From Artemia franciscana (lineage: Eukaryota; Arthropoda; Branchiopoda; Anostraca; Artemiidae), in NCBI RefSeq assembly GCF_032884065.1, contig NC_088868.1:8814963-8878962 (forward strand): a stretch of 64,000 nt of DNA. Direction: 5' to 3'. Shown one piece after another: positions 2,823-49,266 of this stretch (position 1 is the first letter of the stretch; every line of letters begins with the position of its first letter). The notes beneath the pieces are model-generated. The model had not been told where the DNA came from. It saw nothing but the letters and a program-made list of their open reading frames with translations, and searched no databases. Position numbers and translations under genes: made by a program.

Positions 2823-3546
2823 ATATTCGTGCTAAGAGGCTGGTGTCTCAGCTTTTCAATTTCAAAACTTGATACTCAATTAGTCAAGTTTTTGTTCAGG
2901 CTACGTAAGACCAAAATCACAAAATCTTACACAACAATAAATATTCTGATTCTCTATAAACCTGATTTTGAAAATGTGTGACATCTACAAATCCTTTGGA
3001 CCATTTATTTGAATGTTGTTCAGTAGATTATGTAACAATGCAGAAAGTTTTAGACAATTTACTTTGGAAGCATAACACAAAACATGGGAAAAGTCATAAA
3101 ATTGCAGCTATCCATTTCTTTCTAAAATGGATAGTTGTAAGATGGTATAAAATTATGTTTAAAATTCATGGTTTTAAATAAACGAATAACTACTTTTTCT
3201 GTGTTATTTGAAAAAAACGATATATAAGACTAAGCAGTTATTCAGAAGCCACGAAGGATTTTTTTTTTGGTTCTTACATTGTTTTTTCTCAACCCAATTT
3301 TTCATGATATTCCTCTTTTTCATAACTTTAAAAACTGAAAATTCAAATGTTGTTCTTATTATAAACTAGGAAGCTTACGAGTTTAAAACTAATAATAAAA
3401 CTTACAGTATCTAATGTAAACTGCCCTTAAGAAAGTGAATTTTTTTTTAATTTTATTTATACTTTCCTTTTTAAGTAATGAAATCTTCTGTTCCTTAATA
3501 CTACTCTTAAAATAATCTTTCTATATTTCTTTCTAGAAAATTTGAG
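2823..3546 (+). repeat. 725-bp tandem duplication, copy 2
   Basis: Direct second copy of 2098-2821, in the same orientation with no spacer. Differences are scattered, with three clustered at the end of the ORF. Distances between matching landmarks are 725-726 bp. Confidence 0.9.
2972..3181 (+). CDS. exon-like ORF, unrecognised (copy 2)
   Basis: Same 67-residue frame as at 2246-2455, still open. It differs only at the end, where FTTHGVK becomes FKIHGFK. That the frame survives while the surrounding DNA has diverged slightly fits either weak constraint or a recent duplication. Function unknown. Confidence 0.35.
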   Translation, partial: KCVTSTNPLDHLFECCSVDYVTMQKVLDNLLWKHNTKHGKSHKIAAIHFFLKWIVVRWYKIMFKIHGFK

Positions 3547-3701: not shown

Positions 3702-5510
3702 GTATAAAACCATTTTTTTAGATTACGTCAAATTTTTTGTAGGTCTAGCATTTTCCTACTCAACTACATGAAACTCCAGCAAAAACGATGCTAGTTCATT
3801 ACATTATTGCTCTTACCATACTAGTGACTCTATGAATCTGGAAAACGACTCGTATTAGTTTGATCATTTATATCTAGAGCTCTTGATTGCTTAAATTAAA
3901 GTTTGAAAATCTGTATTTATTTTTAGGCATCAGTAGGTTACTTTTTAATGCAAAAATCACAACTGAAGTAAAATATCTAAATACTGCTGGTGGAAATTTC
4001 TATTTTAACCGAACTTAAATCACAAGAATAACGGGGATCAGAATTACCCTAAAAGCTTGCAATTGTAACCACTCAAATCTTCCGTTTTGGTTCAAGGCTG
4101 ATTTTGAGCTCTTGGCTAATGGCCATGCTACCGTTGCTACTAATATAAAATTACCAAGATCCATTTTATGAAGTGGCTATCACTGTTACTACGATTAAAT
4201 GGTTTTTTAGCTTCATGTGATGTTGATTAGAACCATTAGTGTAAATTTTTAGCACCAATTCCTTCAAGAGAAGGTAGTCAAAGAGCACAGACAAAAACGT
4301 TATTAGATGTAAATTTGCTTTTGTTATTCAGAAAGTGACTAAAATTTGAGTCACATAGGTGAGGAATACAATTCTGGCAAAAATAAGCTTGGAAGACAAG
4401 TCAACTTTTTTATTAAGTGGCTATTCTATGGTTTACAATAAAGCTTAAGTTATAATTAGGAGAAAAATTCAAATAATTTAAATACAAATTTCCATAATGA
4501 TAGTACAAATTTATTTCCGACAGAGTTTGCTTTGGGCATATAAGTTAGAAAAGGGCCAAAAGATTTAAAAATTACCTGAACAATATAATGAACTCATAAA
4601 TTCTGAAATTTCAGGATGTCTAGATTCTAAGCCTCATCCTGCCTGTGCGGGTTATCGTTCCTCAATGAAATTTAAGATTTTAAAATTTATGGAAACATTT
4701 CAAAACAAATTCTTTGGATTGAAATTGTTCCTAATGAAAAAATGTTTTCTGTCCATGTTAAAATTACTTCAGGACTTCTCCAAATGGGCAAGTTATCTCA
4801 AAAGTTTACCTTACAAGATATAATGTGGTCTACATAATAAAAACAACAACATAATTAGTAATCTAAACATAATAGTAATATGTTCATAATTAACCAATGT
4901 CAAAGTCATTTGAATGATGTGCAATATTTAAAGATTATATGTGTTTAGGGAGTGGAAATTGTTTCTATAGTAAAAGTGCATATGACATATGGATTTTTTC
5001 CAGATTGCATATTCTCTAGAAAGACATTGAATACTACGGGGAAAGTCAAGGAATATGGTGTTGTAGGAGTTGTGAGGCTAAGAAAGTGGGTTTTAAAATT
5101 GGCATAACATGTTATCATGTTACCTTTCAGCCTTCAACTTTTACCCTTTCTTCTGTTACATGGCTAAAATTTTATTTGCCTTGTCCCCTCCCGAAACTAT
5201 TCCTAAAAGTTTCAACTTGATACCCACACCGTCCCCAACATATGAAAAATGCACTATATCTACAACTCGGAAATGCTTAATGCCGTTGAATACACCTCGC
5301 TGTTCAACTTTGCAGATGTTACAAGTCCCACGGGAACAATAGTGAGTCAGGAAGAAAAAGATTTAACCATTTCCCCTGCCCTAGGACAAAATTAGGATGA
5401 AATGAGTCAAACTCCCCTCCTTTTTTAACAGTGTTTTTGAGTATTTTATTCAGAGCCCAGGCCGTTCTCACGATATTACAGATATACAATAATAATGATA
5501 TTGATCTGTC
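3702..5510. other. AT-rich non-coding stretch
   Basis: No open frame with protein-like content, no element ends and no simple repeat beyond short T and A runs. Confidence 0.5.
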
Positions 5511-5592
5511 ATTAGCTCCGCTAAGGACTGTCACTTAGCTCCGCTAAAGACTGTCACTTAGCTCCGCTAAGGACTGTTACTTAGCTCCGCTT
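5511..5592 (+). repeat. 23-bp tandem repeat, ~3.5 units
   Basis: The unit TTAGCTCCGCTAAGGACTGT plus CAC recurs at a strict 23-bp spacing (5512, 5535, 5558, 5581), with one or two substitutions per unit. Each unit contains a small AGC-TCCG-CT inverted motif. Confidence 0.9.
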
Positions 5593-6900: not shown

Positions 6901-8109
6901 CAACTTGACTTAGTTGACTTACTTGACTTAATGCTCCTGCTGAAATACTTCGGACGTCGAGAGTGATGTTACACGGTGCCTACATTTGGACCGGTCTCTT
7001 GCAAGGATGTGGATACCCTCCTGAAAATTTGCCATGACTAAGAAGGCGCCTGTCGTGTCCTTCCATCTGGTTGGAGGACGACCTCTTGGGCGTCTCCCGC
7101 CGTGCAGCACGGGATCAAAGTCAAAAATCGTTCGTGCGAGAGTTTCAGGGGGCATGCAAAGGAGATGTCCGAACCACTGTAGTGTTCGTTGGGCGAGTTG
7201 GACTGAGAAGGACATTAGAACAGTTAACGCCAAGAGATTCTCGTTGCTAACAAAATCGTGCCAGCGTAGTCCTTCAATGCAGCGAAGATGTTTTGTTTGG
7301 GCTATATTTACGGTGCTAAGCACAGACTGAGTGGCTGGCCAGGTTTCGGCTCCGTAAAGAAGCACAGATCCCACCGAAGCATTGTATATGCGCAACTTGG
7401 TCCTACGGATGATAGAAGGTCTCCTCAAAAGGGCACTTAGTCTTCCCACTACTGCTGTGGCTTTGGCAATTCGGTGCATTAGATCTTTTAGGATTAATCC
7501 GCCATTTGAGAGGATAGTGCCAAGGTATGTAAATTCCTCAACAATCTCAGCTGGTTTGTCACCAACCATTAGGACTGGCGGGGGACGCGGCGAGTTACGG
7601 GGTTCAACAAAAATCAGTTTTGTCTTCTGCCGCTTAATCGACAGCCCTATCTTTAAGGCTTCATCAGCAAGGATCTGTAGGGCTTCTGTGAGCTTCGACG
7701 GTGAATCGGACACAAGAGCAAGATCATCGGCATAATTAGCGTCTGAAAGTACTCTGTTACCGTAATGCAACCCAAACTGGAAGTGGTTTATGGTCCGAGT
7801 AATAATGTAGTCGATGAAACAATTAAATAGCTCTGGGGCAGCAGCACAGCCCTGACGGACTCCAGTATTGATATCAAAAGATGAGCTGTGTCTGCCATTG
7901 ACTTGCACCCAGCTCTCAGTCCCTTCTTGGAGCCGCTCGAAAAGGTTGCAGTACTTCGCTGGTAGTTCCGTTGTTTTCAGTATGAGCCAGAGTGATTGCC
8001 GGTCGACAGAATCGAAAGTAGTCTTGAAACCCACAAAGGCAACAAATTCTTTTTGTTGAAATTCTCGAGTCTTATCGAATGTATTTTTCTTCTTCGGTAT
8101 GCTAGACAT
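6901..8109 (-). mobile_element. 5'-truncated RTE-like non-LTR retrotransposon
   Basis: The element runs on the minus strand and keeps the reverse-transcriptase domain, the C-terminal tail and a 3' end. Its 3' end (6901-6932) is a short tandem run of AAGTC/TTGACT units, as expected for RTE-type elements, which end in simple repeats rather than long poly(A). The endonuclease and the start of the RT domain are missing, so the copy was truncated on insertion. No target-site duplication was identified. Confidence 0.75.
6928..8109 (-). CDS. LINE reverse transcriptase ORF, catalytic Asp lost
   Basis: One uninterrupted 393-codon frame. It starts in motif A (FVGFKTTFDSVDR, about residues 26-38), then RT motif B (TGVRQGCAAAPELFN), the catalytic box NYADDLALVSD, the thumb (FTYLGTILSNGG) and the C-terminal region (LLYGAETWPA, then RTLQWFGHLLCM, then GRRPRGRPPTRW). 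In this family motif A normally reads FVDFKKAFDSV; here the first metal-binding Asp is Gly (codon 8029-8031) and the Ala is Thr, so polymerase activity should be gone although the frame is open. The ATG at 8107-8109 is probably fortuitous because the element is 5'-truncated. RTE-like is my best assignment. Confidence 0.75.
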   Translation of the reverse strand: MSSIPKKKNTFDKTREFQQKEFVAFVGFKTTFDSVDRQSLWLILKTTELPAKYCNLFERLQEGTESWVQVNGRHSSSFDINTGVRQGCAAAPELFNCFIDYIITRTINHFQFGLHYGNRVLSDANYADDLALVSDSPSKLTEALQILADEALKIGLSIKRQKTKLIFVEPRNSPRPPPVLMVGDKPAEIVEEFTYLGTILSNGGLILKDLMHRIAKATAVVGRLSALLRRPSIIRRTKLRIYNASVGSVLLYGAETWPATQSVLSTVNIAQTKHLRCIEGLRWHDFVSNENLLALTVLMSFSVQLAQRTLQWFGHLLCMPPETLARTIFDFDPVLHGGRRPRGRPPTRWKDTTGAFLVMANFQEGIHILARDRSKCRHRVTSLSTSEVFQQEH

Positions 8110-14110: not shown

Positions 14111-16906
14111 ATCAACTAGTGTGTACTTTCTTTATTTTTTTTTATCTTTTTTACCTGAAATAAATACATTGTCCATCAATTAGCTCTTCCGTGACTTGGT
14201 GTATATCCAGCGTTGCCATACTTCGCGTGAACAGACGTACATCAAATTGATCATATAAGCAAAAGACTTATGCCCAACTGACCAGAAAACTAAACAGATG
14301 TATATCCAATTCTCCTTTATTCAGAAGGGCGTATGTTTTTCAAGTTTCTAGTGAAAGAAACGTAAAGACCAAACGGACAACTTCTCAAGTTCGGAAATAC
14401 TTGAAAAGCCACCTATCGACTTCTGCAATATAAAAACCCCGACTTAACTTTAAAAGCCTTTACTACAGGCTCATTTGGTCTCCAGAGAAGTGAAGTTTCT
14501 GGAATTTTTGAACCCAATTTTCTCAAAACGTGGTTTTGTGTATACGTCTCTTTGTCAGAGAACGGCTGAAATGAACGGCAAAAGATAAAAATATTTGAAA
14601 AAAGAGTATGATTCCTTATTTAATTACCTTCGATCTGAGCTATAGCTGAAGAATTTTGGAGTATCTTGTAATTTTTTATTGATTTTAAGATAGTTTTTTG
14701 CAGTTTTGATGGATTCTTAGGGAATTTGAAGAAATGTGGATGTCGCACCCATTTGTAGACTATATAACGCAGATTTTGATTTTCAGCGTGGTTGATTACA
14801 TTAGATTGCACACTCAAAGCTTCTGCTGCTTGTTGATCACATCAATCCTTAAATATCAACATGTCTCTCGTATGGCTCCCTGACTAGAAAGGGATCACTA
14901 GGGAATATATTCTCTCTAAGAGTCTGGTAAATAATCTTATATCTTCTCAAACATAATTCTCTATTCATTAGTGTCTCTTGAACCTGGCACTACATATTTT
15001 CAAAACCACAGCATTTTCCTAGTCTATTTAAGGCTTTGATAGCTCCTATATGGGCCCCTGCAAAAACACTTGAAAGCATGAAATGGATATAAGTATTAAC
15101 TAGTTTTTATTCTGTTTGTTTTTTTTTGGTAAAATGATCTTAAATTGACGTCTCTATTTTCTTTTGTCGGAGTCATCCATTGAATATAATGAGACATCTA
15201 CCGGAAACAAATGGAGATCCCCTAACCCTTGAACTAAAAAAGGACTCCCTTCCTTTCCCAAAGTTGAGGTAACTAGTTCTGAGCTCTACCCGAAATATCA
15301 AGTCTTGAAAATTCTTCGGTAGTCTGAAATTCACCTTCTTGGCGCCTAGATCCCATTGTGGAGGACCTATCCCAATTTGTGCCAGCAATTCCCCAATGAG
15401 TGCTAAACGCAGCAGATTCCACTCCTAGAGCCTGTCTCAAGCAGGACTACGCTTCACTCCCCAACAAAGCTATCCAGCCTTCATGGCCAAACGTTTTTGG
15501 ACCGATCATACTAAGACTGTCCTCGTCCAGTTTGTGATGGGTAGACCCGCAGGTCTGACGTCTATGCCTGATAGGTCCATTCTCCATCATAGACGCAAGA
15601 TCCCCCTTAGTAGCCTAAGTACTGAGTTCATCCCCATCCCATGCTCTTTAGTCCCGGGAACGCTTACACCAGCTAAAATTGACACATATCCCTTAAAGAG
15701 CCTAGCCAACTTAGTGTGACCTTACTGTTTATCCACACACTCTTGAAGCTTTTACCTTTACCAAAAACACTTTGGGGAACATTTAAGCTTAAGTGGGTAT
15801 TCTCCATTTTTATTATTTCATTTACTGCTACTCCACTCTCTGGACCTTTTGTTTGGAATTTTTCATTTCATCTTTACTTATACAGAAAAATCAATCGGGA
15901 TTTTATTTCCTAATAGTGCTAATTGCTCCACTTTATACCAGTGAAGATTAATAGACCAGTTTTGCTGAATAGGGTTAGCTTCTGCTCCCAAAATACCTAG
16001 CGTACCAGCACTAAAAAAAACCCTTAAGCTACAGACGAAAATGTCACCGCCAGGCCAGATTGAAACCACCAGAAAGGTGAACGTAAAATTTCTTGGAAGA
16101 GAAAGAGGGCTAAATTTGAACAAAATTAATAAATTAATTTATCCTCCCCCACTTAAACGGGGGTTGTGACGAACTTCAGTGCCGATGTCACCAATTATAA
16201 AGTTGCCCCCCTTCTAGGGCCAGAGAATGAGTCTGGTTGTTGCCTTAAGTAGACTTTGGGTGACTTGCAGTACTTAATTCTCTTCCTTAACGTATCGATA
16301 TGAATCTACAAAATTATTTACCCAAAGCTCATAGGGGAACAATAAATTAATTTGGTAGCGTAATTGACTGAGGCAATTTAGTTCTATTGTACTAAAAATT
16401 CGATGACAACTTGACGTCATTGTAAAATTTGATAAGAGTAAAAAGAAGAGAAAATAATGTATTCCGTGTCATTGAATATTTGTCTCCCAATGCTTCTTGT
16501 CTGAATTAATTAGTGTGGTATTGTGTGCGCTGCAATTCAAAGTGAGCTAATAACTTGGCGTAACCTCAATTAATTAGACACAGGTTTATTAGTTAGATTT
16601 ATTAGAATAATGTATTAACCAATTATTTTTCTTAGCAAGAACAAATGTTCCTTGAACCTTGGGTAAACTTCAACTTCAACAAGGAAGACTTTTGACTGAA
16701 TTTCCTAAGACTATGGAAGGAAATTTAAATGCCTAACCTGACTAGTAATTTTTCCCTCTCCCCTAACCTCTCTGTATTGACATACAGGCTAGCTTAGTTG
16801 TATTTACATTAGAGATAGGATTGGGAAGGTAAGAGAATACGCTCTAAGGTGACAGACCTATCCTCAGGATTCAAAATCTATCGTATAGACGCGAGAGAAC
16901 TAATGA
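14111..16906. other. non-coding stretch, nothing firm
   Basis: The 15170-15920 part is less AT-rich and has short frames on both strands that resemble no family I know. No LTR pair, tRNA or simple repeat found. Confidence 0.4.
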
Positions 16907-17429
16907 GATGAACAAAACTAAAGTCAAGAAGAATCCAACTTCTGGGTGGATATTTATTGCAAACACTGAGCTGTAGGTCGAAGAAACGATAAGCTGGAAA
17001 GGGGGCAAGCTTCTTGTAGCTGCTATTCTTGTTTTTAGCTACCCTACGTTAACACCCGATTTTTCTAAGCTAATTTTCTCTCCTTCATAATTAGCAGTAG
17101 TATTAGGAAAAGGACAAACCTTAAGATTAATCCATCCTTAGATTGAGCTATCCTTCAATAATGCCGGTTTTAGGTTGAACCGACCTCAACTAGTTAGAAG
17201 GGATAGAGGAAAATAAGAAAACCCGCAACTAATCAATGTAAAACCTAACAAAGACTTTGAGTTATTTAAACGATAATCGCAACCTTCTGTTGTAATCAGA
17301 ATTGACTTTAATGAAATATCTTAATGAAACTGAATAAATCCAAAGGCTACTTTAAATTATCCGAGAGACTCAATGCTCTAATAAACCAAATGGGTAAGTC
17401 TCCCAAAAAGGGAAGATACAGCTCTGACT
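16907..17429. repeat. 523-bp duplicated segment, copy A
   Basis: Begins GATGAACAAAACTAAAGTCA and ends AGATACAGCTCTGACT. The whole segment recurs 4710 bp downstream at 21617-22139; I compared the lines and found no mismatch. It has no ORF, terminal inverted repeat or tail, and this copy is not flanked by a direct repeat, so it looks like the donor. Confidence 0.93.
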
Positions 17430-18540
17430 AGAGTTAGGGCCAGAAAGGGAACGAAAAGAAGTTAATTGACGACTGAAGTCAAAACAGAAAGAGGATATCT
17501 CGACATAAGCAAAGTGGTGAAAAGGTTGTATTTATTATTTTAATTTTACATTTAAATAAATTTATACAAGGCAGGTGGTTACCATTACTAGTTACAGAAA
17601 GGTTACTTGCCAAAGTCCCTATTCTTTCTCCTCCGATCTCCACACAAGACAGCCCCATTCTCCCCTCGATTTCGATGTTCTCTCTTTTTAGCTTTTAATT
17701 GTGATATGTTCAGAAACCAGTTTTGGGCCTTCCCTAGAGATTGGCTAAGATAAATTTTATAAAAGAAATTGTAAATAAGTGTTTTTTTCCTGTATTTTTG
17801 GGTCTTGCTTCTAAGAACTTGTAATGTCGTATCATCCTATGATTGTCAATTTAGTAATTTACGAAACTAGTCTGAAGTTGGTCTTCAACTATTTATTATG
17901 GTTCAAATGTTTCAATAGTTGCTATTCTCCAAAATAAGGAGATGTCAAAACATTATACGATTTGAAAATCTGTTAAGGCCGATATTAAAACTGAAGGTAT
18001 TTTCCAGTTAAGCTGATTTGAAATAGCCTGTTTATATTTGATTCATTAGACAAAAGGGGATTTCAACCTTTACCCAAAAATTGAGTTACAAAAAAGAAGT
18101 TAATTTATTAAGCATAATAGTAAAGTACTCTTACACTTTAATAAATAGAGGTACTAAAAAAAAAGAAGAAAAACATGACAATAATGTCACTGTTTGTTAA
18201 GAAAATCAGTGTGTTTGAATTGTAAAGCTTCTCTGTAGACAATTAAACACCCAAACATCCGTGTGGGATCACAATATGTTGAAACAGCTTTATTCCGCCC
18301 AAAAATTGTTATAGTTTTCATTGATTTTCCTATATATTATTCTACAACGTTAGTTACTAAGTCCTATAAAGGTCAATATCTTACGAGCAAAATCAATATT
18401 TTGTTTTATAGTTACTTTACATGTGACACGGTTTACAGTACCTAAAATAAAATCTAGCAGCAAGAAAAAGCATAAATAAATCTGGAGTGATAAATCTGGA
18501 GCGATCTAAATAGAAAAGTAATTTTAACCTTTATTGAGGT
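17430..18540. other. AT-rich non-coding stretch
   Basis: No supported feature. Confidence 0.45.
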
Positions 18541-18778
18541 TTTTTGTGGGGATTGGAGTGGTTTCCTCCTGGATGAAGGGGTGGGGTCTTGTAAGGATGG
18601 TTTTGTTATTAGGGGCCATGGTTGTATCGAAGAGTGGAGGGGGAGCCATAGTGTGTATTTATTTTTGAGGTGATAAGGGACTCAGCATGCATTTTTTGCA
18701 TAGAGATGAGAGATGATGTATGTTGTGGCTGTTACATTTTTTTTTAATAAACCCGAATGAACTGAACTGAACTGAACT
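18541..18778 (+). mobile_element. 3' end of a non-LTR retrotransposon, (TGAAC)4 tail
   Basis: A G-rich, T-rich stretch ends in AATAAACCCGAA followed by four TGAAC units (18758-18777). A polyadenylation-like hexamer followed by a short pentamer repeat is the typical 3' end of CR1/RTE-like LINEs. No RT sequence remains, so this is a heavily 5'-truncated copy or an isolated 3' UTR. The 5' boundary is approximate. Confidence 0.55.
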
Positions 18779-20129
18779 AAAATACTTAGTTGAATCAGTA
18801 TTACATAGCCACAGCAATACAATAAATAAATTTCCTTTTTAATAAACTATAATGTATCTACAAATTTCCTAAGTTTCATGCCTCAAAACGATCATTTTTG
18901 CCTAAAATTGTAAATATGTGTTAGATATATAAAAATAATACATACTTTTACTTGCACGCACTCTAGTATGTGACTATTTACCTAAAAGCTAAAATTATGC
19001 AAAAGCTTTCTTACATAAGATTTATGCTATATTTTCTGTATCGTTTTTCTTTTTCAGGTCTAACTTACTTTGCAACCATTTCTTCATGTACTGGTATGCA
19101 GCACCTGGAAGAAGGATTCGCCAGCATTCAGAAGCAAAAAGGATTTTTCAGATAGAGAATTTCTCAGTGAAATAAAAGTAGTTAACTCTGATTGTTTTTC
19201 TCACATCTGAATTGTTAATTTTTTCTTAATGTCTTAGAAAAAAATACACTTGTAGAATAATAGTGCTATTAAAAATTTTCTTTAAAAGTACTTTTAGAAC
19301 AAAAGGCTTTATTTGTTCTATACGATAAAAATTCTCGTTGAAAAGATGTGAGAGATGATTGATAAAGATAAGACTGGCAACTAAAAACTTGCTACAATCG
19401 AAAACACTAGAGAGTTATCAGATCACTTGCCCTCTTTGTAAAAGTACAGTTTGTCTTCCTTTTCATTTTTAATATTGCACATTAATTTCACAAGAAAGTA
19501 AATTAAGAAAATGTGAATTAAGAAAGAAATAACTTGTTATCGAATAAGCTCCCTTCAAAGTTCTTACATCAACTCCTTCCATACCAAGTGGCCTAAGTAA
19601 AATTAAATATTGAAGACAAATCACTGTCTAAATAGGCAGTAAAATTGCACTGTCTGTGATTACTCTCATTAAAAACAAGCTTTTTGTATCTAAACATCAC
19701 AAATATTTGTCCTTAATATCAATATACACCATCATAGCAGATACGGCAACACAAATGTTTATAAACTCCCAATAAAGCCAATGTGAGTGAGGAGATCGCT
19801 GTCTGTCAAGTAAAAATGAAAAACTAGCACCAGTGACACAGCCAGAATTCTGTTTTGGTTGTTTTTCCATCAATTAGGAACACAGAGATTTAGCCATCAA
19901 AACCAAACAGACTATATACAAATCAGAAATATACATGTACCGTTTCACATCCTAGACATCCGTAGCCGTTCGTGTCCAGTGATTCTACAACACCAGAGAA
20001 ATAAGTCACGTAAAAAGGACTTAGAGTAAAATATCAGTCAGATGTTTCGCTTTACCGTAAGTAATTGCTGATGGTACAGAGCGATAAGTCTTCAGTATAT
20101 TGCTAATGCTTTTACTATGTTGTCTCCAG
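18779..20129. other. mostly non-coding, with one possible terminal exon
   Basis: Apart from the candidate at 19046-19156 nothing is supported here. Confidence 0.4.
19046..19156 (+). other. possible 3'-terminal exon
   Basis: A good acceptor (TTTTTCTTTTTCAG) is followed by an open frame reading LTYFATISSCTGMQHLEE and FASIQKQKGFFR-stop, then AATAAA 17 bp beyond the stop. An alternative frame (MYWYAAPGRRIRQHSE) is open for a similar length, so the frame is uncertain. No upstream exon is visible nearby. Confidence 0.25.
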
Positions 20130-20183
20130 AGGTGCAAAAAGTAGAAGGAGTTTTCATAGAAACTGCGAGAGCACTTTCGACAG
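20130..20183 (+). other. possible 54-bp internal exon
   Basis: Flanked by TTGTCTCCAG and CAG|GTAATT. The length is a multiple of three and two frames are open, one reading VQKVEGVFIETARALST. Splice-site quality is fair. No adjacent exon found. Confidence 0.22.
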
Positions 20184-20429
20184 GTAATTAACAGTTCTTT
20201 TTCCTGTTTTAACAGTCAAACTGATCAAATGCAACCAAACCCTCTTTTTTACCTTCCTTTTCTAACCGGCCCCCCTTAACCTACAAAATATTTGGTCATA
20301 ACTTTTATATAGTCTTTTTGTTTTTTAAAAGTCAATAAATATGTCTCTGAGAATGACATGACCCTTACAGACACTTGGGTAAGGGGAAAAAATGTAATTG
20401 TTAGTCGCTAAAATATATGTTTTTAAATA

Positions 20430-21375
20430 GAAAATGGATCTTGTGCGACATCTCAGGAATGGCTAAGTGTGCAAAAATTGAATCATTTAGGGAATACTGA
20501 GGGCGATGTTGATATGAATCAGAATACACTCTGTCTATCCAGCTTGTTATAAAATCACAAATGCAACATTTTAAGAACGGCTAAAGGTTTTAAGATGACA
20601 TTTTCAAGAAATGTCAAGGGTGATGTAGAACTAAGTCAAAAGACACTATGCACATCTACATTGTCAAAAAGTTTGAATTTCCAAAACATTAGGAACTGCT
20701 TAGGTTGTTAAGTTGACAACCACTAAGACACTTTCAGTGAATACTGAGGTGGGTTTAAAATAAATAGAGCTAAAGCCTCAGAAACGGTTTTATGCATAAA
20801 GCAGATATTTTCAAGGAATGCTGAGGGAGAAGTTTCTCCAGTTCAACTTACATTATTTGTATTCAGGTTGTCAAAATAGTGGGTCTGCAATTTCTCTTGA
20901 TTGGTTAAGGATATTAATTTGAAATTTTCACGAGATTTTTAACCTACAAACATTACGTGCCTCCAAGTTGTTAAAATCTACACTTTTGCTGAAACTTATC
21001 AATGTATTAAGATTGAAATTTCAGGGGATATAGAGAAGGTTGTTAAACTAAAACAAAAAGAAACTTTTGTCCAGGCTCTCAAAGAACGTAACCAAAATAT
21101 CTTAGAAACTGCTTTGAGTATTAAGTTAAAGGTTTATAGGCAGCACTTGAGGTAATGCTGAACTAAGTGAAAAGACATTATACGGTGCCAGACTATTAAA
21201 AGAGGCTTATAGAATATTTTAAAAACGGCTAGGGTCGTGATGTTGAAACTTTCTGGGAACTGTATACGGGAAGTTGAACAAAATCAAATATCACCTTGTT
21301 TACCGGAGTATAAATAGGTCGGATGTCTTAAGAGTGGTTATTGGTGTTAAGTTGAATGATAGCACCAAGTCGCCG
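20430..21375 (+). repeat. highly diverged ~117-bp tandem satellite
   Basis: A degenerate unit with the landmarks 'AGGAACGGCTAAGGTTGTTA', 'TTGAAACTTTCAGGGAATGC' and 'TCAAAAGACACTATGCAC' recurs at about 20453, 20573, 20691, 20780, 20900, 21105, 21222 and 21330. Spacings are mostly 105-120 bp. Units differ from one another by 25% or more. A further unit-like piece lies at 22645-22760, beyond the inserted material, so the array was originally longer. Confidence 0.65.
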
Positions 21376-21553
21376 AAGGTCAACCCAGGTAAACGAGCTC
21401 CTCCTACATCCTAATCTGTTCGAGGCCTCCCTTCCAAGAGGCTCCTAGGTTCCTCAAAATGCTCTTTCACGACATCCTCTGACCCTATTTAGAGAAAATT
21501 GATTTTTTTAATTGGTCCCAGACGATTGGCCAACAAGGAAAATCTTTCAAAAT

Positions 21554-21618
21554 CTTTCACTCTACATCTGCAGAATTTGTCCTAGTAATTTCATCCTTTT
21601 CTTCAATACAGCCATAGA
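21554..21618 (+). repeat. 65-bp direct repeat, left flank
   Basis: Starts CTTTCACTCTACATCTGCAG and ends TTCAATACAGCCATAGA. Repeated at 22138-22202 with no mismatch seen. The two copies bracket the second copy of the 523-bp segment, so they behave like a long target-site duplication. Confidence 0.93.
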
Positions 21619-22139
21619 TGAACAAAACTAAAGTCAAGAAGAATCCAACTTCTGGGTGGATATTTATTGCAAACACTGAGCTGTAGGTCGAAGAAACGAT
21701 AAGCTGGAAAGGGGGCAAGCTTCTTGTAGCTGCTATTCTTGTTTTTAGCTACCCTACGTTAACACCCGATTTTTCTAAGCTAATTTTCTCTCCTTCATAA
21801 TTAGCAGTAGTATTAGGAAAAGGACAAACCTTAAGATTAATCCATCCTTAGATTGAGCTATCCTTCAATAATGCCGGTTTTAGGTTGAACCGACCTCAAC
21901 TAGTTAGAAGGGATAGAGGAAAATAAGAAAACCCGCAACTAATCAATGTAAAACCTAACAAAGACTTTGAGTTATTTAAACGATAATCGCAACCTTCTGT
22001 TGTAATCAGAATTGACTTTAATGAAATATCTTAATGAAACTGAATAAATCCAAAGGCTACTTTAAATTATCCGAGAGACTCAATGCTCTAATAAACCAAA
22101 TGGGTAAGTCTCCCAAAAAGGGAAGATACAGCTCTGACT
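21617..22139. repeat. 523-bp duplicated segment, copy B (inserted)
   Basis: Identical to 16907-17429 in the same orientation. Two bases at each edge are shared with the flanking 65-bp repeat (GA on the left, CT on the right), which looks like junction microhomology. There is no ORF, inverted terminus or tail. Confidence 0.93.
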
Positions 22140-22202
22140 TTCACTCTACATCTGCAGAATTTGTCCTAGTAATTTCATCCTTTTCTTCAATACAGCCATA
22201 GA
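22138..22202 (+). repeat. 65-bp direct repeat, right flank
   Basis: Second copy of 21554-21618. It continues into unrelated sequence (AAGCAAGAATAAGCC). Confidence 0.93.
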
Positions 22203-22254
22203 AAGCAAGAATAAGCCAAAACATCGTAAAGTGCAGTGTTTGAAAGATCGTGAG

Positions 22255-22640
22255 TCATTCATTTACCTAAATAATCCATATGCAGCTGTTGCGTAAAATA
22301 TTTAGTAAATCTTCCTCTGTTTTCCAGACTGCGTATACTTCAAAATCATGGTTGACCACTGTTTTTCTTTATTCCTTTACTGTATTCTCCAGAAGTATGT
22401 GCTTTGGCTATTCTACTTTTAAAATCTTCAGTGCTCCCAATGGGTTTACTAGCAATACTATTTAAGTAAATGAAGCTTTCCACATGATATATCTTCTCAT
22501 TACAAAACATCACCTCTTCACCTTCATTTATTCATAGTCTTAACGTCTGAGTCTTCTTAAAGTAAATTTTAAAACCTACTCTTGCACCATAAGTTTTCAA
22601 AATCTCTAGAAATTTATTGATTTTGATAAAAAAATTTATC
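22255..22640 (-). pseudogene. degenerate LINE RT C-terminal fragment
   Basis: The minus strand reads INKFLEILKTYGARVGFKI, then KKTQTLRL, then EEVMFCNEKIYHVESFIYL and SIASKPIGSTEDFKSRIAKA. These match, block by block, the region after the YADD box of the LINE at 26821-29180. Two or more stops and a frame change. It sits within the old satellite array, next to the 523-bp insertion. Confidence 0.65.
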
Positions 22641-22879
22641 TAGGTTGCTGGTGAAGATATTGAGTTGAAACTTTAATTGAATGCCAAAGGGAATGTTGAA
22701 AGAATTCAGAGACCCTTTGCTAATCTAGGTTGTTAATAAGATGTATCTTTAATATCTTCCGGATGGTGACTGATTTTAATCTCTGATTTTCAGAGAAACT
22801 TGTAAGGGAAAATTAGACTTTTTGAAAAGACATTTTTAGATGGTTTCAAGACGTTGTACAAGTTTATGGAGCACCCTTT

Positions 22880-23090
22880 CCAAGAGAGTATCTACAATAG
22901 GATAATAGGAATCCTTTGTCCAATGGACCAGGGTTCAATTCCTGGTGTCGCCTGTTACTTGGTTCAGGATGATGGTCAGTGGTGTGACTCCTTAAGCTCA
23001 CATGGGGTCAACCCAGCTCAATATGGGTACCCGGAGAAATCTTGGGAAAGTAAACAGAAACAGGAAGGATGCACGAAATCAAAAGATGGC
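22880..23090 (+). mobile_element. tRNA-derived SINE, copy 1
   Basis: Contains a pol III B-box match (GGTTCAATTCC at about 22933) followed by CTGGTGTCGCCTGTTACTTG and GGTGTGACTCCTTAAGCTCA. The same body, with about 20-25% differences, is present on the other strand at 26480-26715, so this is a family and not a tRNA gene. The A box is decayed. Ends are approximate. Confidence 0.6.
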
Positions 23091-26803: not shown

Positions 26804-26825
26804 AACTACTACTACTACTACTACA
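26804..26825. repeat. (ACT)n microsatellite, LINE 3' tail
   Basis: Seven imperfect ACT units directly at the 3' end of the minus-strand LINE. On that strand it reads (AGT)n and serves as the simple-repeat tail of an RTE-type element. Confidence 0.85.
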
Positions 26826-27732
26826 AATAACTCACTGCAGCACCAAGCCCCCTGAGGCCAACACAGCTACGCAAGCTCCTCCTCCAACCTAATCTATTTA
26901 AAGCCTCCCTCTTTACACCCTCCCAGGAATTTCCCATTTCCTTTAAATCTTTATTTATGACATCCTCCCAACCCAGAAAAGGACGACCTGCTTTCCGTGT
27001 AGCCCCAGACGGTTGGCCAAAAAGGACAATCTTCGGTAATCTGACATGCTTCATCAGTAGAACGTGGTCTAGCCATCTCAACCTTTCTTTCATTATAACC
27101 CCAGAAAGCGGGATACACTTTTCGTACAACCTACTGTTTGACATACGGTCAGTCAGCCGGGTACCCAGAACAATCCGTAGGCAATTTCTCTGGAAAACAT
27201 CTAGTAAATTTTCCTCTGCTTTTCGGAGTGCCCATGCTTCAGAGCCATATTTGACCACTGTCATCACTGTAGCTTCCAATACTCTAATCTTGGTTTGTAG
27301 ACTTATCTTTCTATTCTTCCAAACTTTTTTTAACTGTGAAAAAACACCCTGGGAATTATCTATTCTACTTTTAACATCTTCACTACTCCCACCATCTTTA
27401 CTAATAATACTACCAAGGTATCTGAAGCTCCCAACCTGATCAACCTTTTCGTTACCTAATGTCACCTGTTCATCTTCACTTATTCCTAGCCGTAGTGACT
27501 TAGTCTTCTTAACATTAATTTTCAAGCCTATTTTAGCACCCTGAACTCTTAAAACCTCTAAAAATTCATTCATTTTGCTCACACTTTCATCTAATATGCT
27601 TAAGTCATCAGCATAATCTAAGTCCAGGAGCGTTCTTCCTCCCATTTGATTCCATGGTCTCAAATTGCCTTTCCTGTCCTCCTTAAGACGAAGTCCATCA
27701 AAAAGATGCATATAACGGGGGATAGAACACAA
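26821..27732 (-). pseudogene. LINE RT catalytic box and C-terminal domain
   Basis: A 303-codon frame. Real homology starts around the GGRTLLDLDYADDLSILDES box and runs through KIGLKINVKKTKSLRLGIS, FRYLGSIISKDGGSSEDVK, TVVKYGSEAWALRKAEE, FQRNCLRIVLGTRLTDRMS, RLRWLDHVLLMK and GRPFLGWEDVINKDLKEM to a stop near the (ACT)n tail. The first 20 or so residues are out of frame relative to the upstream RT part, so the ATG is not meaningful. Confidence 0.8.
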
Positions 27733-29344: not shown

Positions 29345-30190
29345 TCTATATATATAAAAATAAGTTGTATGTGTGTTATGTCTTTTACACTATGTCTGTT
29401 AAGCCAGATTATATCTTCTATATATATTTAAAAATAAGTTGTATGTATTTTTGTGTTGAGGGTTTGCATATGACGTCTGACAAATAAAGAAGAAAATGAA
29501 AACAAACTAAAATGTAAAAACTGGGAATTGCATAAATATTTCGAAATATTTTGACAATAGATTAAAGTAATTCGAAAACCTTAAAACAGATACTTAAAAC
29601 TTTGAGGTTTATTATAAATTGTTGAGCTTTAGCAAGCTTGACACGTGAAGATTTTTCCACCTGTCAATGTTGTAGAATGTTACCAAAAAGCAAAACCAGG
29701 CTTGTGGTTCAAAGAGAAAGGGCCAGATTAGGAATGTGCAATTTACGTCAACGAAGGCGTGTCGAGGAACTACCAGAAACGCGAAACCAGACTTGCTGCT
29801 GAAGGAGAAAGTAAAAAAAGAAGGCGTGTCGAGGAATCACAAGAGCAATGTGAAAACAGGCTTGCGGGTTCAAGAGATAATGCCAGATTAGGAATATGCA
29901 ATTTACGTCAGCGAAGGCGTGTCGAGAAACTACCAGAGCAACGCGAAAACAGACTTGCTGCTAAAAGCAAATGCCCTTCATTTGTTGAACATATGCAAAC
30001 TGTCGCTTTATAGATTGCAGAGCATACGTGAATTGCGTCATTTTGTTTTTCCTCACTTAAGACTGTTTTAATTGAAAGTTATATCTTACTTTATAAAAAA
30101 GCAAGTCTCCGCGAAAGCCCTTCAATCTTAAACCTGAAAATAATGACATAAATTTAGTTACTTGAATAAAATATTTCTTTGGAAAATTTC
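29345..30190 (+). mobile_element. Helitron A, 5' portion
   Basis: Begins at an A|TC junction with TCTATATATATAAAAATAAG TTG, a 5' end shared with the other Helitron copies here. A second partial copy of this end follows near 29411. Downstream is the start of a Helitron-type ORF. The element appears to be broken by Helitron B at about 30190, and I do not see its own 3' end. Confidence 0.6.
29677..30013 (+). pseudogene. Helitron ORF N-terminal repeat region
   Basis: From an ATG at 29677 the frame reads MLPKSKTRLVVQRERARLG and NLRQRRRVEELPE, then shifts by a base near 29775 and continues RRRVEESQEQCENRLAGS and NLRQRRRVEKLPEQRENRLA to a stop at 30013. The repeated basic RRRVEE-x-PEQ-x-ENRLA unit is typical of the region in front of the Helitron_like_N and Rep domains. 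At DNA level the repeat spacing is about 160 bp (29741 and 29901). The Rep (HUH) and helicase domains are absent here. Confidence 0.65.
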
Positions 30191-30194
30191 TTGA

Positions 30195-30987
30195 GCTTTG
30201 TTGATGGTGAGTGCTAATGGAACATTCCCTGTGTCCCCGTCGTCATTTATATATCCCCCTGTGCCCCCGTTATCCCCGTTGTAGTTGTGTCCCTGTGTCC
30301 CGTTCGCCGTTTATATTCCCTGAATCCTTATCTTTGTGTGTCCCGGTCGTCATTTATATCTCCCGGTCGTTATTTGTGTCCCAGTGTCCCAGTCTGTAAT
30401 TTCTCTTTGAGTGTCCCGGTCGTCATTTATATTCCCTGTGTCCCGGTTTTTAGTTTTTTTTCTCCTTTATTTTTCAGTTTTTTCCTTTTTTAGTTTTTTT
30501 TCTTTTTCAGTTTTTAGTTTTTAAGTTTTTTATTACTTTTTAGTTTTTTTTCTATTTAGTTTTTTTTTTAGTTTTTACCTTTCTTTTGTGTTTTTTTGTT
30601 TTTTTCTTTTAAGTTTTTTTGTAGTTTTTACATTTTTTAATTTTTTTTTAGTTTTTATTCTTTTTTAGTTTTTAGTTTTTTACCTTTTTTTAGTTTTTTA
30701 GCTTTTTTAGTTTTTTTAGTATTTACTTTTTAGTTCTTTTTTGTAGTTTTTACCTTTTTTAGTTTGTTTCTTCTTTTGTATTAATGCTAAAGCCAAGGTT
30801 CGAACCTGGAACCTCTCGGACCTAGAGCCTGGAACAAAACGCTTTACCAACTCAGCTAATTCGGCTTGAATACATTCGTTTTTGAATTGGTATTTGATGA
30901 AATAATTCAGACGTCATATAATGATGTCACTCGAAAGACAGACAGGGAGACAGACAGAAAGACAGACAACTTATTTTTATATATAGA
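30195..30987 (-). mobile_element. Helitron B (minus strand), 5' end at 30987
   Basis: On the minus strand it starts A|TCTATATATAAAAATAAG at 30987 and runs left through GTC-rich repeats, a tRNA-like block, T-rich filler, a minisatellite and a short helicase piece (about 30195-30230, reading ALTINKAQ). It breaks off there. It forms the left arm of a large palindrome with Helitron C. Confidence 0.6.
30791..30867 (-). other. tRNA-like sequence with A and B boxes, copy 1
   Basis: The minus strand reads AGCCGAATTAGCTGAGTTGG (A box TAGCTGAGTTGG) and ends in GGTTCGAACC, a perfect B box, within a plausible T-arm. The spacing suggests a tRNA with a long variable arm, but the acceptor stem is not clean. 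It lies inside Helitron B. Confidence 0.5.
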
Positions 30988-31091
30988 TAGATAAGTTGTC
31001 AGTCTGTCTGTCTGTCTGTCGAGTAACGCCACTGTCCGCACATGACGTCTGAATTATTTCATTAAATACCAATTCAAAAACGAATGTAATC

Positions 31092-31167
31092 AAGCCGAAG
31101 TAGCTAAGTTGGTAGAGCGTTAAGTTTCAGGTTCTAGGTCCGAGAGGTTCCAGGTTCGAACCTTGAA
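31092..31167 (+). other. tRNA-like sequence with A and B boxes, copy 2
   Basis: AGCCGAAGTAGCTAAGTTGG followed 40 bp later by GGTTCGAACC. Mirror-image partner of the copy at 30791-30867. Confidence 0.5.
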
Positions 31168-31423
31168 TACAAAAGAAGAAAATAAACTAAAAAAGGTAAA
31201 AACTACAAAAAAAAACAAAAAAGAAAATACTAAAAAAATTAAAAAAGCTAAGAAACTAAAAAAAACTAAAAAAAGGTAAACAACTAAAAACTAAAAAAGA
31301 AAAAACTGAAAAAAACTAAAAAAGGTAAAAACTACAAAAAAAAAACTAAAAAGAAAAAAACAGAAAAAGAAAACTAAAAAAAAAGGTAACTAAAAAAGGT
31401 AACTAAAAAAGGTAAATGTATTC

Positions 31424-31500
31424 AAGCCGAAGTAGCTGAGTTGGTAATGCATTATGTTTCCGGTTCTAGGTCCGAGAGGTTCCAGGTTCGAACCTTGGCT
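31424..31500 (+). other. tRNA-like sequence with A and B boxes, copy 3
   Basis: AGCCGAAGTAGCTGAGTTGG and GGTTCGAACC. It is followed by CTTTAGCATT as in copy 1, so the Helitron C arm carries a tandem duplication of this block (spacing 332 bp). Confidence 0.5.
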
Positions 31501-31744
31501 TTAGCATTTATACAAAACAAGAAAAATAACTAAAAGAGGTAAAAATTACAAAAAAAAACTAAAAAGAAAATACTAAAAAACTAAAAAAACTTAAAAAAGG
31601 GTACAAAACTAAAAAAAGGAAAAACTGCAAAAAAAAATAAAAAGAAAAAAAGTAAAAACTAATAAAAAACTAAAAAACTAAAAAGAAAAAAACTATAACT
31701 AATAAAATAACTAAAAAAACTAAAAACTGAAAAAGAAAAAAAAC

Positions 31745-32052
31745 TAAAAAAAGGGACACTCAAAGAGAAAGTGACCGGGACACGGAATGTTCGATTATCA
31801 ATCACCATCAACAAAGCACCGGGACACAAATGACGACCAGAACACAGGGAATATAAATGACGACCGGGATACTCAAAGAGAAATTACATACCAGAACACC
31901 GGGACAAAAATGACGACCGGGACACAAATGACGACCGGGACACAGGGAATATAAAGGACGACCGGGACACAGGGACACAACTAAAACGGGGACGCCGGTG
32001 GGCACAGGGAGATATATAAATGACGACGGGGACACAGGGAATGTTCGATTAG
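31745..32052 (+). repeat. GACGACCGGGACACAGGGAA minisatellite in Helitron C
   Basis: Units built from AATGACGACCGGGACACA and GGGAATATA are repeated in variable 12-40 bp combinations. Mirror-image versions lie at 30225-30450 (Helitron B) and 33530-33720 (Helitron D). The last unit runs straight into the helicase frame, where it encodes NDDGDTGN. Confidence 0.8.
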
Positions 32053-32239
32053 CAATCACCATCAACAAAGCTCAAGGGCAATCATTAGAATAATGAGGTA
32101 TAGATCTGAATACAGATTGTTTTTCCCATGGACAATTATATGTTGCATGTTCAAGAGTCGGTAAACCTGAAAATCTATTTATATGCACAGACAATGGGAC
32201 AGCCAAGAATGTTGTATATTCGCAAGTTTTACGTAGTTA

Positions 32240-42705: not shown

Positions 42706-43050
42706 ACTACACTATTACTAACTCTTGAGCATTCTCTGAAACCCCAACACCATCATTCAAAAATATTTTCCAGACATATTCTCATTAACAATCTTGCGTT
42801 AAACCCAGGGTCTTATGTTTTTGCAAACCAGCCCTTTTTGATACAATATTGCCATACTGCCACTAGGTCACGCTAGGACTGGCCATCTGAAACCTTCTGG
42901 CTTACACTCATCAATCCTGAGGCATTTCAGGTTTATTCCTGTTAAAAAATTTACATTGAATCCAAGTAAGCCACTCTCAATGAGATACACCATGCAACTT
43001 CACGTCACTGTACCACACTATGACTGTTCTTCTGTTACCCTCGGGTCGGA
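42706..43050. other. short unique stretch before the satellite
   Basis: No feature seen. Confidence 0.4.
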
Positions 43051-43913
43051 CAAAAGCACAGTCAGACATAAAGGCAAGGTGAGAGAGATATACACGCACA
43101 GAGGGAAAAACAAACTTACCCTCACAGACACACAAACAAACACAAATAACCACAAATACACACACACAGACACACTCATACAAACACAAACAAACACACA
43201 AACACACATACACACACCAACATAAGCAAACAAATACAGACACACACACAGACACACACACATACTTGCACACACAAACACACACACACACACACACACA
43301 CCCATGCACACACATATACTAACACCCACACAAACACATACAATCACACACACGCACACACACACATACATACACAAAAATACATACAAACACACACCAC
43401 ACCCAATCACACACACACATGTGCAAGCACGAACACACGCATATACATACAGAAACGCACAAACGCACAAATACGAATACACAAAGACAAACACTACCAC
43501 AAAAAGTCAGGCACAAAGCCACAAACAGAGTCAAGCAAAAAGGCATTGGGAAGGGACGAAAACACGCAGAGAAAAGGATAAAAAAACAAATATCAATAAA
43601 TACACAAATAACCACACAAAGCCAGACACACAGGAAAACACACAGTCAGACACAAAGGCACAGGTGAGTGAAATAATTACACAAAGTTAAGAAGACTTAC
43701 ACCCAAACGCACACGTAGACACACAATCACACAAAGTCAGATAGACAGACAAAAACACAACCAGACACAAATCCATTTGAGAGATAGAAACATGCAACAG
43801 GACAAACAAACAATCACACACATAAACACATACACAAATAGAAACACAACCACAACCATACAAGTTAAAACACAAAGGAACACACACATAGTCAGGCACA
43901 AAAGCAAAGGGAG
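43050..43913 (-). repeat. ~100-bp satellite, left array part 1 (CA/GA strand)
   Basis: Very CA-rich; the reverse complement shows the same phrases as the right array (GTGTCTGACTGTG, TTTTGTGTG, CTCTCACC). Units are more degenerate and partly replaced by (CA)n near 43260-43310. Open frames here are low-complexity artefacts. Confidence 0.8.
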
Positions 43914-43925
43914 GATTGACAATAC
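43914..43925. repeat. 12-bp target-site duplication, left
   Basis: GATTGACAATAC; the identical 12-mer lies at 44464-44475 on the other side of the inserted LINE. Confidence 0.8.
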
Positions 43926-44463
43926 CTTACCTTAGACCTTAGTTCCTGCAGAGCCATCGGTGGAACATAGGGCGTCGAAAAAGCCTCTCGATTCGTTTCG
44001 CAGTGGTGCTGCAGCGATGACGTCTTCCCATTCAGGTATTAGTGAGGTGCCGGCCGTTCTCAGTTCTCGGTCATATGTTCGTCTCAATGTAGTTTTTGGG
44101 TGGCCTCTCTTTCTTCTACCGTCTGGCGTCCATTCATAAGTTGTTCGAGGAAGGCGGCTCTCTTCTATACGAAGAACGTGTCCCAGGTATGTCTATCGCC
44201 TTCTTTTCAGCAGCTCAGTGACTGGAGGTTGACCTGTTTTTCTTCGTATTTCTGCAAGTGTAATTTTTTGTTGCCAGCTTTTATTCAACATTCTTCTGAG
44301 GCTCATATTTTTAAATTCAAGGATCCTTTTTTCAAGCTGGGTGTTTATTTTCTAACATTCACTTGCGTAAAGGAAGATTGAGAGTACATTGCTGTTGAAG
44401 AGTCGAAGCTTCAGTCGCATTGAATATTTATTACTTCTCCAAATAGGCTTCAATTTATTGAAT
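43926..44463 (-). mobile_element. RTE-like LINE insertion, 538 bp, 5'-truncated
   Basis: The minus strand reads the C-terminal end of a non-LTR RT: NKLKPIWRSNKYSMRLKLR, LFNSNVLSIFLYASEC, then FKNMSLRRMLNKSW, QQKITLAEIRRKTGQPPV, TYLGHVLRIEESR and TPDGRRKRGHPKTTLRRTYD. After the ORF the 3' end is a short TAAGG/TCTAAGG repeat. It is bounded by a perfect 12-bp duplication and lies inside the satellite, so it inserted after the array formed. A few frame breaks only, so it is relatively young. Confidence 0.85.
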
Positions 44464-44475
44464 GATTGACAATAC
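44464..44475. repeat. 12-bp target-site duplication, right
   Basis: GATTGACAATAC, partner of 43914-43925. Confidence 0.8.
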
Positions 44476-45985
44476 GCAAAGAGGAAAAAATAACACATAA
44501 ACATATGCCAAGAGAAATTCAGAAACACAGGCAAAATCAGTCTGACACAGAGGCATGGAGAGCGACAAAAAGAAGAGAGAAAAAAACAGACACACACAAA
44601 TACAACTACAAAAAGTCAAACACACAGGAACAAAAACCAAATCACACAAAAAGGCATTGATAAAGACACAGACACAGACAGAGGACAACACACAGAGGAA
44701 AAACACAAGCACACACACGAACATAGACAACCACACAAATATAAACGAACAAGCACACACACACATACAAACACAGTCAAACATACAGGTACATGGGGAA
44801 AAACAGAGGGAAACATACACAAACACAACAACCACACATAGTCAGACACACTGGCATACACGCAAACACACTCTAACACATAGGCACGGAGAGAGAGAGA
44901 CAAAAAAGCATAAGGCAAATGAAGACAAAAGGCAAAAGATGAAAAACACACAAAAACCACAAAGACATAAACTCAAATAAACAAAGAATGGCACAGAGAC
45001 AGGCACAAAGACGCTCAATCATACAAGCAAGGTGAGAAAGAGACAAAAAAAAACACACAAAAACACACAAGTCCGACACATAAAGACAGGCACAGAGACA
45101 GGTTATCAGACACTGACTCACACAGGAACGTTGGAAGAGGAAACTCAGTCACAAAGACACGTTGGGAGAGAGACAAAAAAAATACAAAATCCTAAAGTCA
45201 AACAAACAAAGACAGCCAATGAGACAAGCAAAGTGACGCTCAGTCACAAAGGAACGGTGAGAGAGAGAGAGAAACATTTACAAAAAAACACAAAGTTAGA
45301 CACAAGAAGACACAAAGACAGGCAGAGAGACACGCTCAGTCACAAAGGTATTTTGGAGAGAGACAAAAAATTACCACAAAAATAGAAATTCAGACACACA
45401 ACCATACTAAGACAGGCATAGAGACATGTAAATCGACGGTTGGTCAAATAGGCACGATGGTAGAGGGACACAAAGGGCACACAAAAACATAAGTTCAGAC
45501 ACATAAACACACAAAGACAAGCAAAGAGACACGTAAACAGACACTCAGTTAAACAAGCATAGTTTGAGAGAGACCAAAATAAACACACACAGACAAACAC
45601 AGAGAGACAGACAAACAGACGCTCATACAAACAGCCAAGGCGTGAGAGAGACAAAAAAACACACGCACAAACACAAAATCAGACAAACAAAGACAGGAAC
45701 AGGGATATGATAAAGAAGCTAAGTCACAGAGGCTCATTGGAAGAGAGACAAAAAAAAACATACAAAATCACAAAATGAAATAAACAAAGACAGGTTAGAC
45801 ATGTCATTACCAGCACAGTGACATGATAACAGACATTCTGTCACACTGACACGGTGAGAGAAAGAAAAAAACATGAAGCCAGACTCAAAGACAGGCACAG
45901 AGACATGGACACAGACACTCAGTCACACAAGCACATTGTGAGAGACACAAAAAATAAACACTAAACCAAAAAGTCAGACACACAA
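44476..45985 (-). repeat. ~100-bp satellite, left array part 2 (CA/GA strand)
   Basis: Units such as AGACACTCAGTCACACAAGC, GGTGAGAGAGAGACAAAAAA, ACACAAAGTCAGACAC and AAAGACAGGCACAGAGACA recur about every 95-110 bp. This is the exact reverse complement of the unit in the right array. The array ends at about 45985. Confidence 0.85.
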
Positions 45986-45989
45986 ACAA

Positions 45990-46484
45990 ACAAGCTTTCA
46001 TATAATTTTGAAAAAATTTCAGATGAGCGTAATTGGTCAAAACCCATTGAAACCCTCCTCAGCGCCCTTCTTCTGAATCCGTATGGTGAATAGACTCAAA
46101 AGTCTCTGGGTAAAATGGAGGTGATGCCTGGACAATCTTGGCGAGGTGTTTGTTGAGGTCATTGGCAGTTTTAATACCAGGCTCATTAAGCTGGAAATCA
46201 ATATTATTAATTTGCTTGCTGGAAAGTTTTTTAACTCAATCATACCACTTCTTGGGAATATAATTAAAGATATATTTCATAGTATTTTTCTGCTCTTCGA
46301 ATACGTTTTTTATCATTTTACGCATCTTGGCTTTTAGAGATTCCTTAATGTAGGTTATATCATTTAAACACTTTTGAATTTTCTTCAGGAAAATATTTTC
46401 CATAATTATCAGATAACTTCCTTTGAAAAATTTGAACTTCAGAATTGACATTGGGAGTAGCTAGGACCTCAAACCAGCACTCTT
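45990..46484 (-). pseudogene. LINE ORF2 linker fragment between inverted satellites
   Basis: The minus strand gives, in two or three frames, CWFEVLATPNVNSEVQIFQR, KLSDNYGKYFPEENSK, LKAKMRKMIKNVFEEQKNT, IFNYIPKKWYD, and SKQINNIDFQLNEPGIKTA, then VQASPPFYPETFE. The pattern resembles the endonuclease-to-RT linker of Jockey/I-type LINEs. Both ends stop exactly where the satellite begins. Confidence 0.45.
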
Positions 46485-46486
46485 CA

Positions 46487-46551
<65 letters not shown>

Positions 46552-48740: not shown

Positions 48741-49266
48741 GCCAGTAGTGACAGCATCAAGACTTTGAGCAGACCCATAGCCACTACTCCTTTGTTTCTT
48801 TAATGATTTAATATAAAAAGCGATGTCCTCAAGACGCATATTCAGGTTACGTAGTAGGGAATGTTTTCTAAGATATGCAGTTGTCTGTTAGGTCATAATA
48901 AATGTTTCTTATGTGACACAGGCGTCTTTTACGTGATTGGAGTTGTGGATGACATAATCTTGCGCAACATCTTGGATCTTATGATTTCTTTTGTATTATT
49001 TCTGAATCGTAAGGATAAACATCTACTTCTTTTTTTTTAGTGAAGATGTAATGATCCAAGAAAACATGTAATCGTGATAACACTGGAGTAGCATTGAGTG
49101 CTGACCAGGAGAAATATTTGAACTATAAATATTGAATGGCGAACTTATATGCAATGTGTGCGTGCATTGTCATGACAGGAAGAAGTTAAATTTCTTTGGA
49201 GTACTGAAAAAATTCAAGTGATATAGAACTGGACATGCGAGAGTAGCAATTCCAGAGAAGTTAGTA
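48741..49266. other. non-coding stretch after the satellite
   Basis: Nothing supported. Confidence 0.4.

Follow-up and report, generated by a model that had tools for sequence, protein, structure and literature searches.

Small tandem duplications at breaks with 3′ overhangs are the subject of papers reportedly by Schimmel et al. In the experiments described in parts of PMC5730883 (2017) and PMC8355091 (2021), opposed nicks leaving 3′ overhangs of 43 to 46 nt gave small tandem duplications of the overhang. Passages of Pace et al. 2009 (PMC2671141) describe repair-mediated duplications (RDs), 824 of them proximal in the human genome, in which a transposable element is interrupted by sequence from a nearby donor (<5 kb); the proximal inserts average 162 bp and reach 619 bp at most. 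Sixty-eight breakpoints were inspected in that work, and the target duplications are given as 4 to 21 nt, a descriptive range rather than a class criterion. A target duplication is reported there for 6 of 39 proximal cases (MH+TSD in three, MH+TSD+filler in two, and filler+deletion+TSD in one). A review, PMC7407515, notes in a legend that 3′ overhangs made by nickases are often repaired with large templated insertions; it also presents the rice insertions of Vaughn and Bennetzen 2014 as patch-mediated break repair at synchronous asymmetrical nicks. Where PMC3296678 treats intron gain by break repair, the frequency of direct repeats around gained introns is said not to exceed that in a random set.

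Here we describe an insertion in a 64,000-nucleotide stretch of the Artemia franciscana genome (NC_088868.1, positions 8,814,963 to 8,878,962; "the window"), which is probably a germline repair scar, left when a break with staggered ends of about 65 nt was repaired by templated insertion from a donor about 4.7 kb away. Self-comparison of the window gave a 524-bp match between donor and copy, with zero mismatches, on the same strand and maximal in extent; the pair is the longest exact repeat in the window among those listed. One unit of a perfect 65-bp direct repeat stands on each side of the copy, and unit, donor, and unit together account for all 649 bases of 21554-22202, with three and two bases counted twice (Table 1). 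Donor and copy are on the same chromosome and are not in tandem, their starts being 4,710 bp apart with 4,186 bp in between. Comparison of the donor flanks revealed no target duplication comparable to 65 bp: the best direct repeat bridging the donor is 4 bp, and the longest direct match between its flanks (10 bp) lies away from the donor ends.

Table 1. Features of the insertion, its source, and its target (window coordinates).
Feature	Position	Strand	Evidence
Donor (template) segment, by alignment an internal stretch of an older dispersed repeat	16906..17429	+	Exact match to 21616-22139; C216 relative spans 16039-18341
Copy of the donor, 524 bp long (519 bp when the repeat-shared bases are assigned to the repeats)	21616..22139	+	Exact match
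65-bp target duplication, left unit	21554..21618	+	Exact repeat
65-bp target duplication, right unit	22138..22202	+	Exact repeat
AGA common to target and donor, left junction	21616..21618	+	Junction comparison
CT common to donor and target, right junction	22138..22139	+	Junction comparison
Decayed LINE fragment (by homology), interrupted by the insertion; homologous to the RVT element at ~26.8-29.2 kb and oriented like it	21361..22629	-	Flank homology

Both junctions are clean, with no filler, since no base of 21554-22202 is left over. Target and donor share three bases at the left junction and two at the right. Sums of five or more arose in 4.3% of 20,000 random junction pairs drawn from window positions 16000-23000, so this microhomology is weak as evidence of break repair and suggestive only. 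An earlier note on this DNA had described a perfect 523-bp copy (16907-17429 at 21617-22139) of a segment 4.7 kb away, two bases of microhomology at each junction, a perfect 65-bp duplication around the insert, a donor with no such flank, and an insert with neither tail nor inverted ends. The identity, distance, duplication, bare donor, and featureless ends all held; the match, however, is 524 bp long and starts at 16906 and 21616, and the left junction shares three bases rather than two, the figure for the right junction being correct.

The ends of the copy bear on the reading that LINE machinery retrotransposed the segment and left a long target-site duplication, or that the segment is itself a non-autonomous transposon. 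Direct repeats do flank the insert, and the segment belongs to a dispersed family. Against this, neither end of the copy carries an A/T run of 5 or more, such runs being internal only (at 21742, 21770, and 22115), and the longest exact inverted match in the outer 40 bases is 5, a length reached by 380 of 500 random stretches. The donor, as noted, has no target duplication of its own. The figures given in PMC2671141 also speak against retrotransposition: poly-A/T tails accompany 0 of 39 insertions from proximal (<5 kb) donors versus 17 of 29 from donors on other chromosomes.

Whether the segment has ends that recur elsewhere was examined in the whole genome (1.27 Gb, 6,468 contigs). A search with the segment itself gave at least 37 matches. 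Among those listed, one other match of the inserted sequence is 100% identical, the best diverged full-length relative is 81% identical, and shorter pieces reach 92% over 98 bp. Many of the matches ended at or near the right edge of the segment, which suggested a mobile element with fixed ends. This candidate was rejected with a wider query of 1,523 bases centred on 16906-17429, where matches continued past the edge; for those matches the edge had been the end of the query. The best 40 of 75 candidates were scored, so the counts that follow are lower bounds. The list held 57 matches including the query itself, and some copies appear in it as several matches. Among the other 56 listed, 35 overlap the segment (the copy included); 12 run past its left end, and 20 past its right end, for 20 bp or more, and 4 run past both. 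One relative, on C216, aligns without interruption through 16039-18341 at 82% identity. The copy at 21616 is the only one of the 56 listed matches with both segment ends. Two alignments do stop near one edge (query 130-499, 71%, and 640-1031, 70%), each without the other edge, and the second extends to 200-1031 under looser local alignment. A genuine boundary is present inside the same repeat at about query position 131, where nine alignment starts and four ends pile up at 126-138.

Because relatives run through the ends of 16906-17429 and only the copy, among the matches listed, has both, these alignments identify 16906-17429 as the source; what was copied is an arbitrary stretch from the interior of an older, dispersed repeat. 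The search for other copies with fixed ends, which the earlier note had proposed as a check, thus found dispersed relatives and, among the matches listed, a single sequence with both ends. With no second listed match ending at both 16906 and 17429, we regard transposition of the segment, by LINE machinery or as an element in its own right, as very improbable.

The sequence into which the segment was inserted is also repetitive. On either side of the copy, 21361-21618 and 22138-22629 are members of an abundant and much decayed family (best 40 of 430 and best 40 of 1,787 first-look candidates, respectively), which also matches an element at ~26.8-29.2 kb in the window. Within that element, the frame at 27660-28214 matches RVT_1 (reverse transcriptase) with 79.9 bits; the frame at 26821-27732 scores 25.2 bits, below the family cut-off of 29.6. 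By homology, then, the target is a LINE fragment, because its family matches an element whose frames match RVT_1. Elsewhere in the window, at 6928-8109 on the minus strand, a frame of 393 codons matches RVT_1 with 68.8 bits; it exceeds in length the retroelement frames near 27 kb and lies in a region rich in G+C (48.8% over 7001-8000).

The abundance of the target family allowed an empty-site test, in which the flanks were joined with one 65-bp unit (685 bases) and aligned with relatives; read-through was scored when a single alignment began 10 or more bases ahead of the unit and continued for 20 or more beyond the junction. By this measure, 12 of the 18 distinct relatives cross the joined site with a single unit (7/11 in a first set, whose 13 subjects included two duplicates of others, and 5/7 in a second, judged from the alignment table). 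L040 aligns over 2-684 of the 685 bases. For L046, also among the 12, the match is broken into two alignments sharing 28 query bases that start shortly before the unit and extend into it; the crossing is made by the second. The six that do not cross fall short on one side: L015, L016, and L017 end 18 bases past the junction, L041 starts three bases before the unit, and L042 and the C10:47351000 stretch cover the right side only. Every empty-site alignment tabulated contains at most 19 gap positions, so no tabulated relative holds the insert or a second unit. In alignments to the occupied site, the first and second units matched identical positions in 7 of 8 relatives; in the exception, L013, the second unit had no match. 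From relatives that cross the site with just one unit, it follows that the ancestral site had a single 65-bp unit and that the second unit and the insert are derived.

We also considered a segmental duplication holding both donor and target. A 29-kb stretch of C216 matches 14887-18341 and 18780-19660 at 81 to 87% and stops short of the target, so it offers no empty target, and this candidate was set aside.

Donor and copy, together with the two 65-bp units, show 0 differences in 589 compared bases (524 + 65), which places a 95% upper bound of 0.51% on their divergence. With the rate assumed to lie between 1 and 5 x 10^-9 per site per year, this bound translates into a maximum age of about 2.5 to 0.5 million years. 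The next full-length copy of the segment, among the matches listed, has diverged by 19%, and beside that figure the description "very recent" in the earlier note is apt, if read as less than about 0.5% divergence. The insertion could nonetheless be carried by more than one individual.

A match of 589 bp without a difference could also be produced in assembly, if the insert and second unit are absent from the organism or if the identity stems from consensus collapse, and the window does contain a 100-N join (822-921). This is the sole N run in the window, though, and its distance to the donor is about 16 kb, and to the copy 20 kb, so that no gap is near the event. The stretch between them, 18800-21553, was matched once at 100%, the next best match being 87% over part of it, and no second haplotype was seen with this query (best 40 of 574 candidates). 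A 65-bp duplication around a displaced 524-bp copy, with overlaps of 3 and 2 bp, is moreover in our judgement an unusual assembly product. An artefact is therefore unlikely, as it would need an odd error, and we give it little weight.

The earlier note had preferred templated insertion to transposition, a preference borne out by donor ends that are not element ends, an empty site with a single unit, and a copy with no tail and no inverted ends above chance. In the sequence of events that we favor, a double-strand break with complementary single-strand ends of about 65 nt, made for example by two opposed nicks, would have formed inside the decayed LINE. One 3′ end (...AGA) would have paired with three bases of the donor, about 4.7 kb distant, and been extended from there by about 520 nt, so that whatever sequence lay in its path was copied. 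The new strand would then have been released and joined to the other end via CT, and fill-in of both 65-nt ends would have duplicated the target. We infer the staggered break, the priming end, and the enzymes at work.

Several observations sit less easily with this scheme. In addition to the weakness of the 3- and 2-bp microhomology, the 65-bp duplication exceeds the 4 to 21 nt given for the class in PMC2671141, and opposed-nick duplications, as described in the parts of PMC5730883 and PMC8355091 cited above, form by fill-in and end joining, with no 520-nt ectopic insert between the units. The 65-bp unit has no stable predicted fold (MFE 0), so nothing in the unit points to a cause of breakage. 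Replication template switching (FoSTeS/MMBIR or serial slippage) accounts for the product equally well. Here a nascent strand ending in AGA would jump back about 4.7 kb, copy about 520 nt, and return via CT to a point 65 bp behind its exit, so that 65 bp are duplicated. The donor is suitably placed for this, being nearby, on the same chromosome and in the same orientation, with short microhomology at both junctions; templated insertions, a 3-bp microhomology, and duplication at an insertion site are interpreted under this model in the cases that PMC5120786 presents. Two switches would be needed, however, one of them a 65-bp backward return, and the sequence gives no preference for fork switching over break repair. 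We consider template switching possible, if rather unlikely. Sequence alone cannot separate it from a staggered break, and a widely staggered break is accordingly put as plausible, because a backward template switch gives the same product.

Sibling events were sought in 138,002 bases, comprising the window and five further stretches, as pairs of 40 to 6000 bp with at least 92% identity after low-complexity filtering; the sample is too small for a rate. Besides 21554-22202, no displaced copy with a long bridging direct repeat was found in these 138,002 bases, which counts to some degree against repair of staggered breaks as the explanation. The remaining pairs shown in the scan comprised two tandem duplications with adjacent units (~725 bp in the window and 345 bp on C216), the 65-bp units themselves, and pairs of 52 to 53 bp near 31.8 and 33.6 kb, one with a 15-bp bridging repeat. 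The tandem duplication in the window consists of 2098-2821 and 2823-3546, at 98.3% identity. It is improbable, in our estimation, that the genome harbors a recurring route in which overhangs of at least 60 nt take up hundreds of bases copied from nearby, each time with a long target duplication and a transposon-like look.

Other repeats in the window include a region at 30190-32076 whose inverted arms are nested (complementarity of 96%, 84%, 89%, and 93% at corresponding depths) and in which a T-rich half is followed by an A-rich half; judged by this arrangement, it looks like a foldback element of about 1.9 kb. Another foldback structure may be present at ~43000-49000, where an A-rich part precedes a T-rich part (AT skew up to +0.63, then to -0.65) and partial inverted matches of 71 to 84% are found (25 of 29 pairs shown); the region forms a large mirrored pair of degenerate CACA/TGTG-type arrays. 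At 5506-5591, a 23-bp unit is repeated in 3.8 copies at 93%, its consensus containing the perfect inverted core CTTAGC/GCTAAG. Comparison of the window with phages gave no match, and a scan for bacterial promoters gave nothing, the bacterial model being inapplicable to this genome.

The insertion is a fine example of a process already described. Its value lies in being a clean, undecayed case: paralogues from a single genome suffice to read the donor, the empty target, and both junctions. A target duplication of this length also serves as a warning that direct repeats around an insert are not proof of transposition. Should such events turn out to be common, the lengths of their duplications would tell of the geometry of germline breaks in nature.

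Comparison with the published systems does not show that a long target duplication combined with an ectopic insert is absent from print. The rice insertions, as the review PMC7407515 describes them, are alike in that insertions of 10 to 1000 bp are accompanied by tandem or partly tandem duplications and short ectopic donors. The insertions attributed to FoSTeS/MMBIR in the cases given in PMC5120786 share microhomology, templated insertion, and a duplication at the insertion site with the present locus, but those cases are human, much larger, and often multi-junction. The small tandem duplications of PMC5730883 and PMC8355091 likewise comprise a direct repeat of tens of base pairs explained by overhangs; in the parts of those papers that describe them the units are in tandem, whereas about 520 nt of ectopic sequence separates the units here. 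With the RDs, as Pace et al. (PMC2671141) set them out in the passages concerned, the likeness extends to the interruption of a transposable element whose relatives show the empty site, a donor on the same chromosome that is less than 5 kb and more than 50 bp away (here 4,186 bp between), an insert below the 619-bp proximal maximum, microhomology, and absence of poly-A. The locus differs from them in the length of its target duplication (65 bp versus 4 to 21 nt) and in its insert, which is long when set against the 162 bp that their proximal inserts average; all genomes named in those passages are vertebrate. Because donor distance, insert size, microhomology, and absence of a tail match, we conclude that the event fits the RD class of PMC2671141, with an unusually long target duplication.
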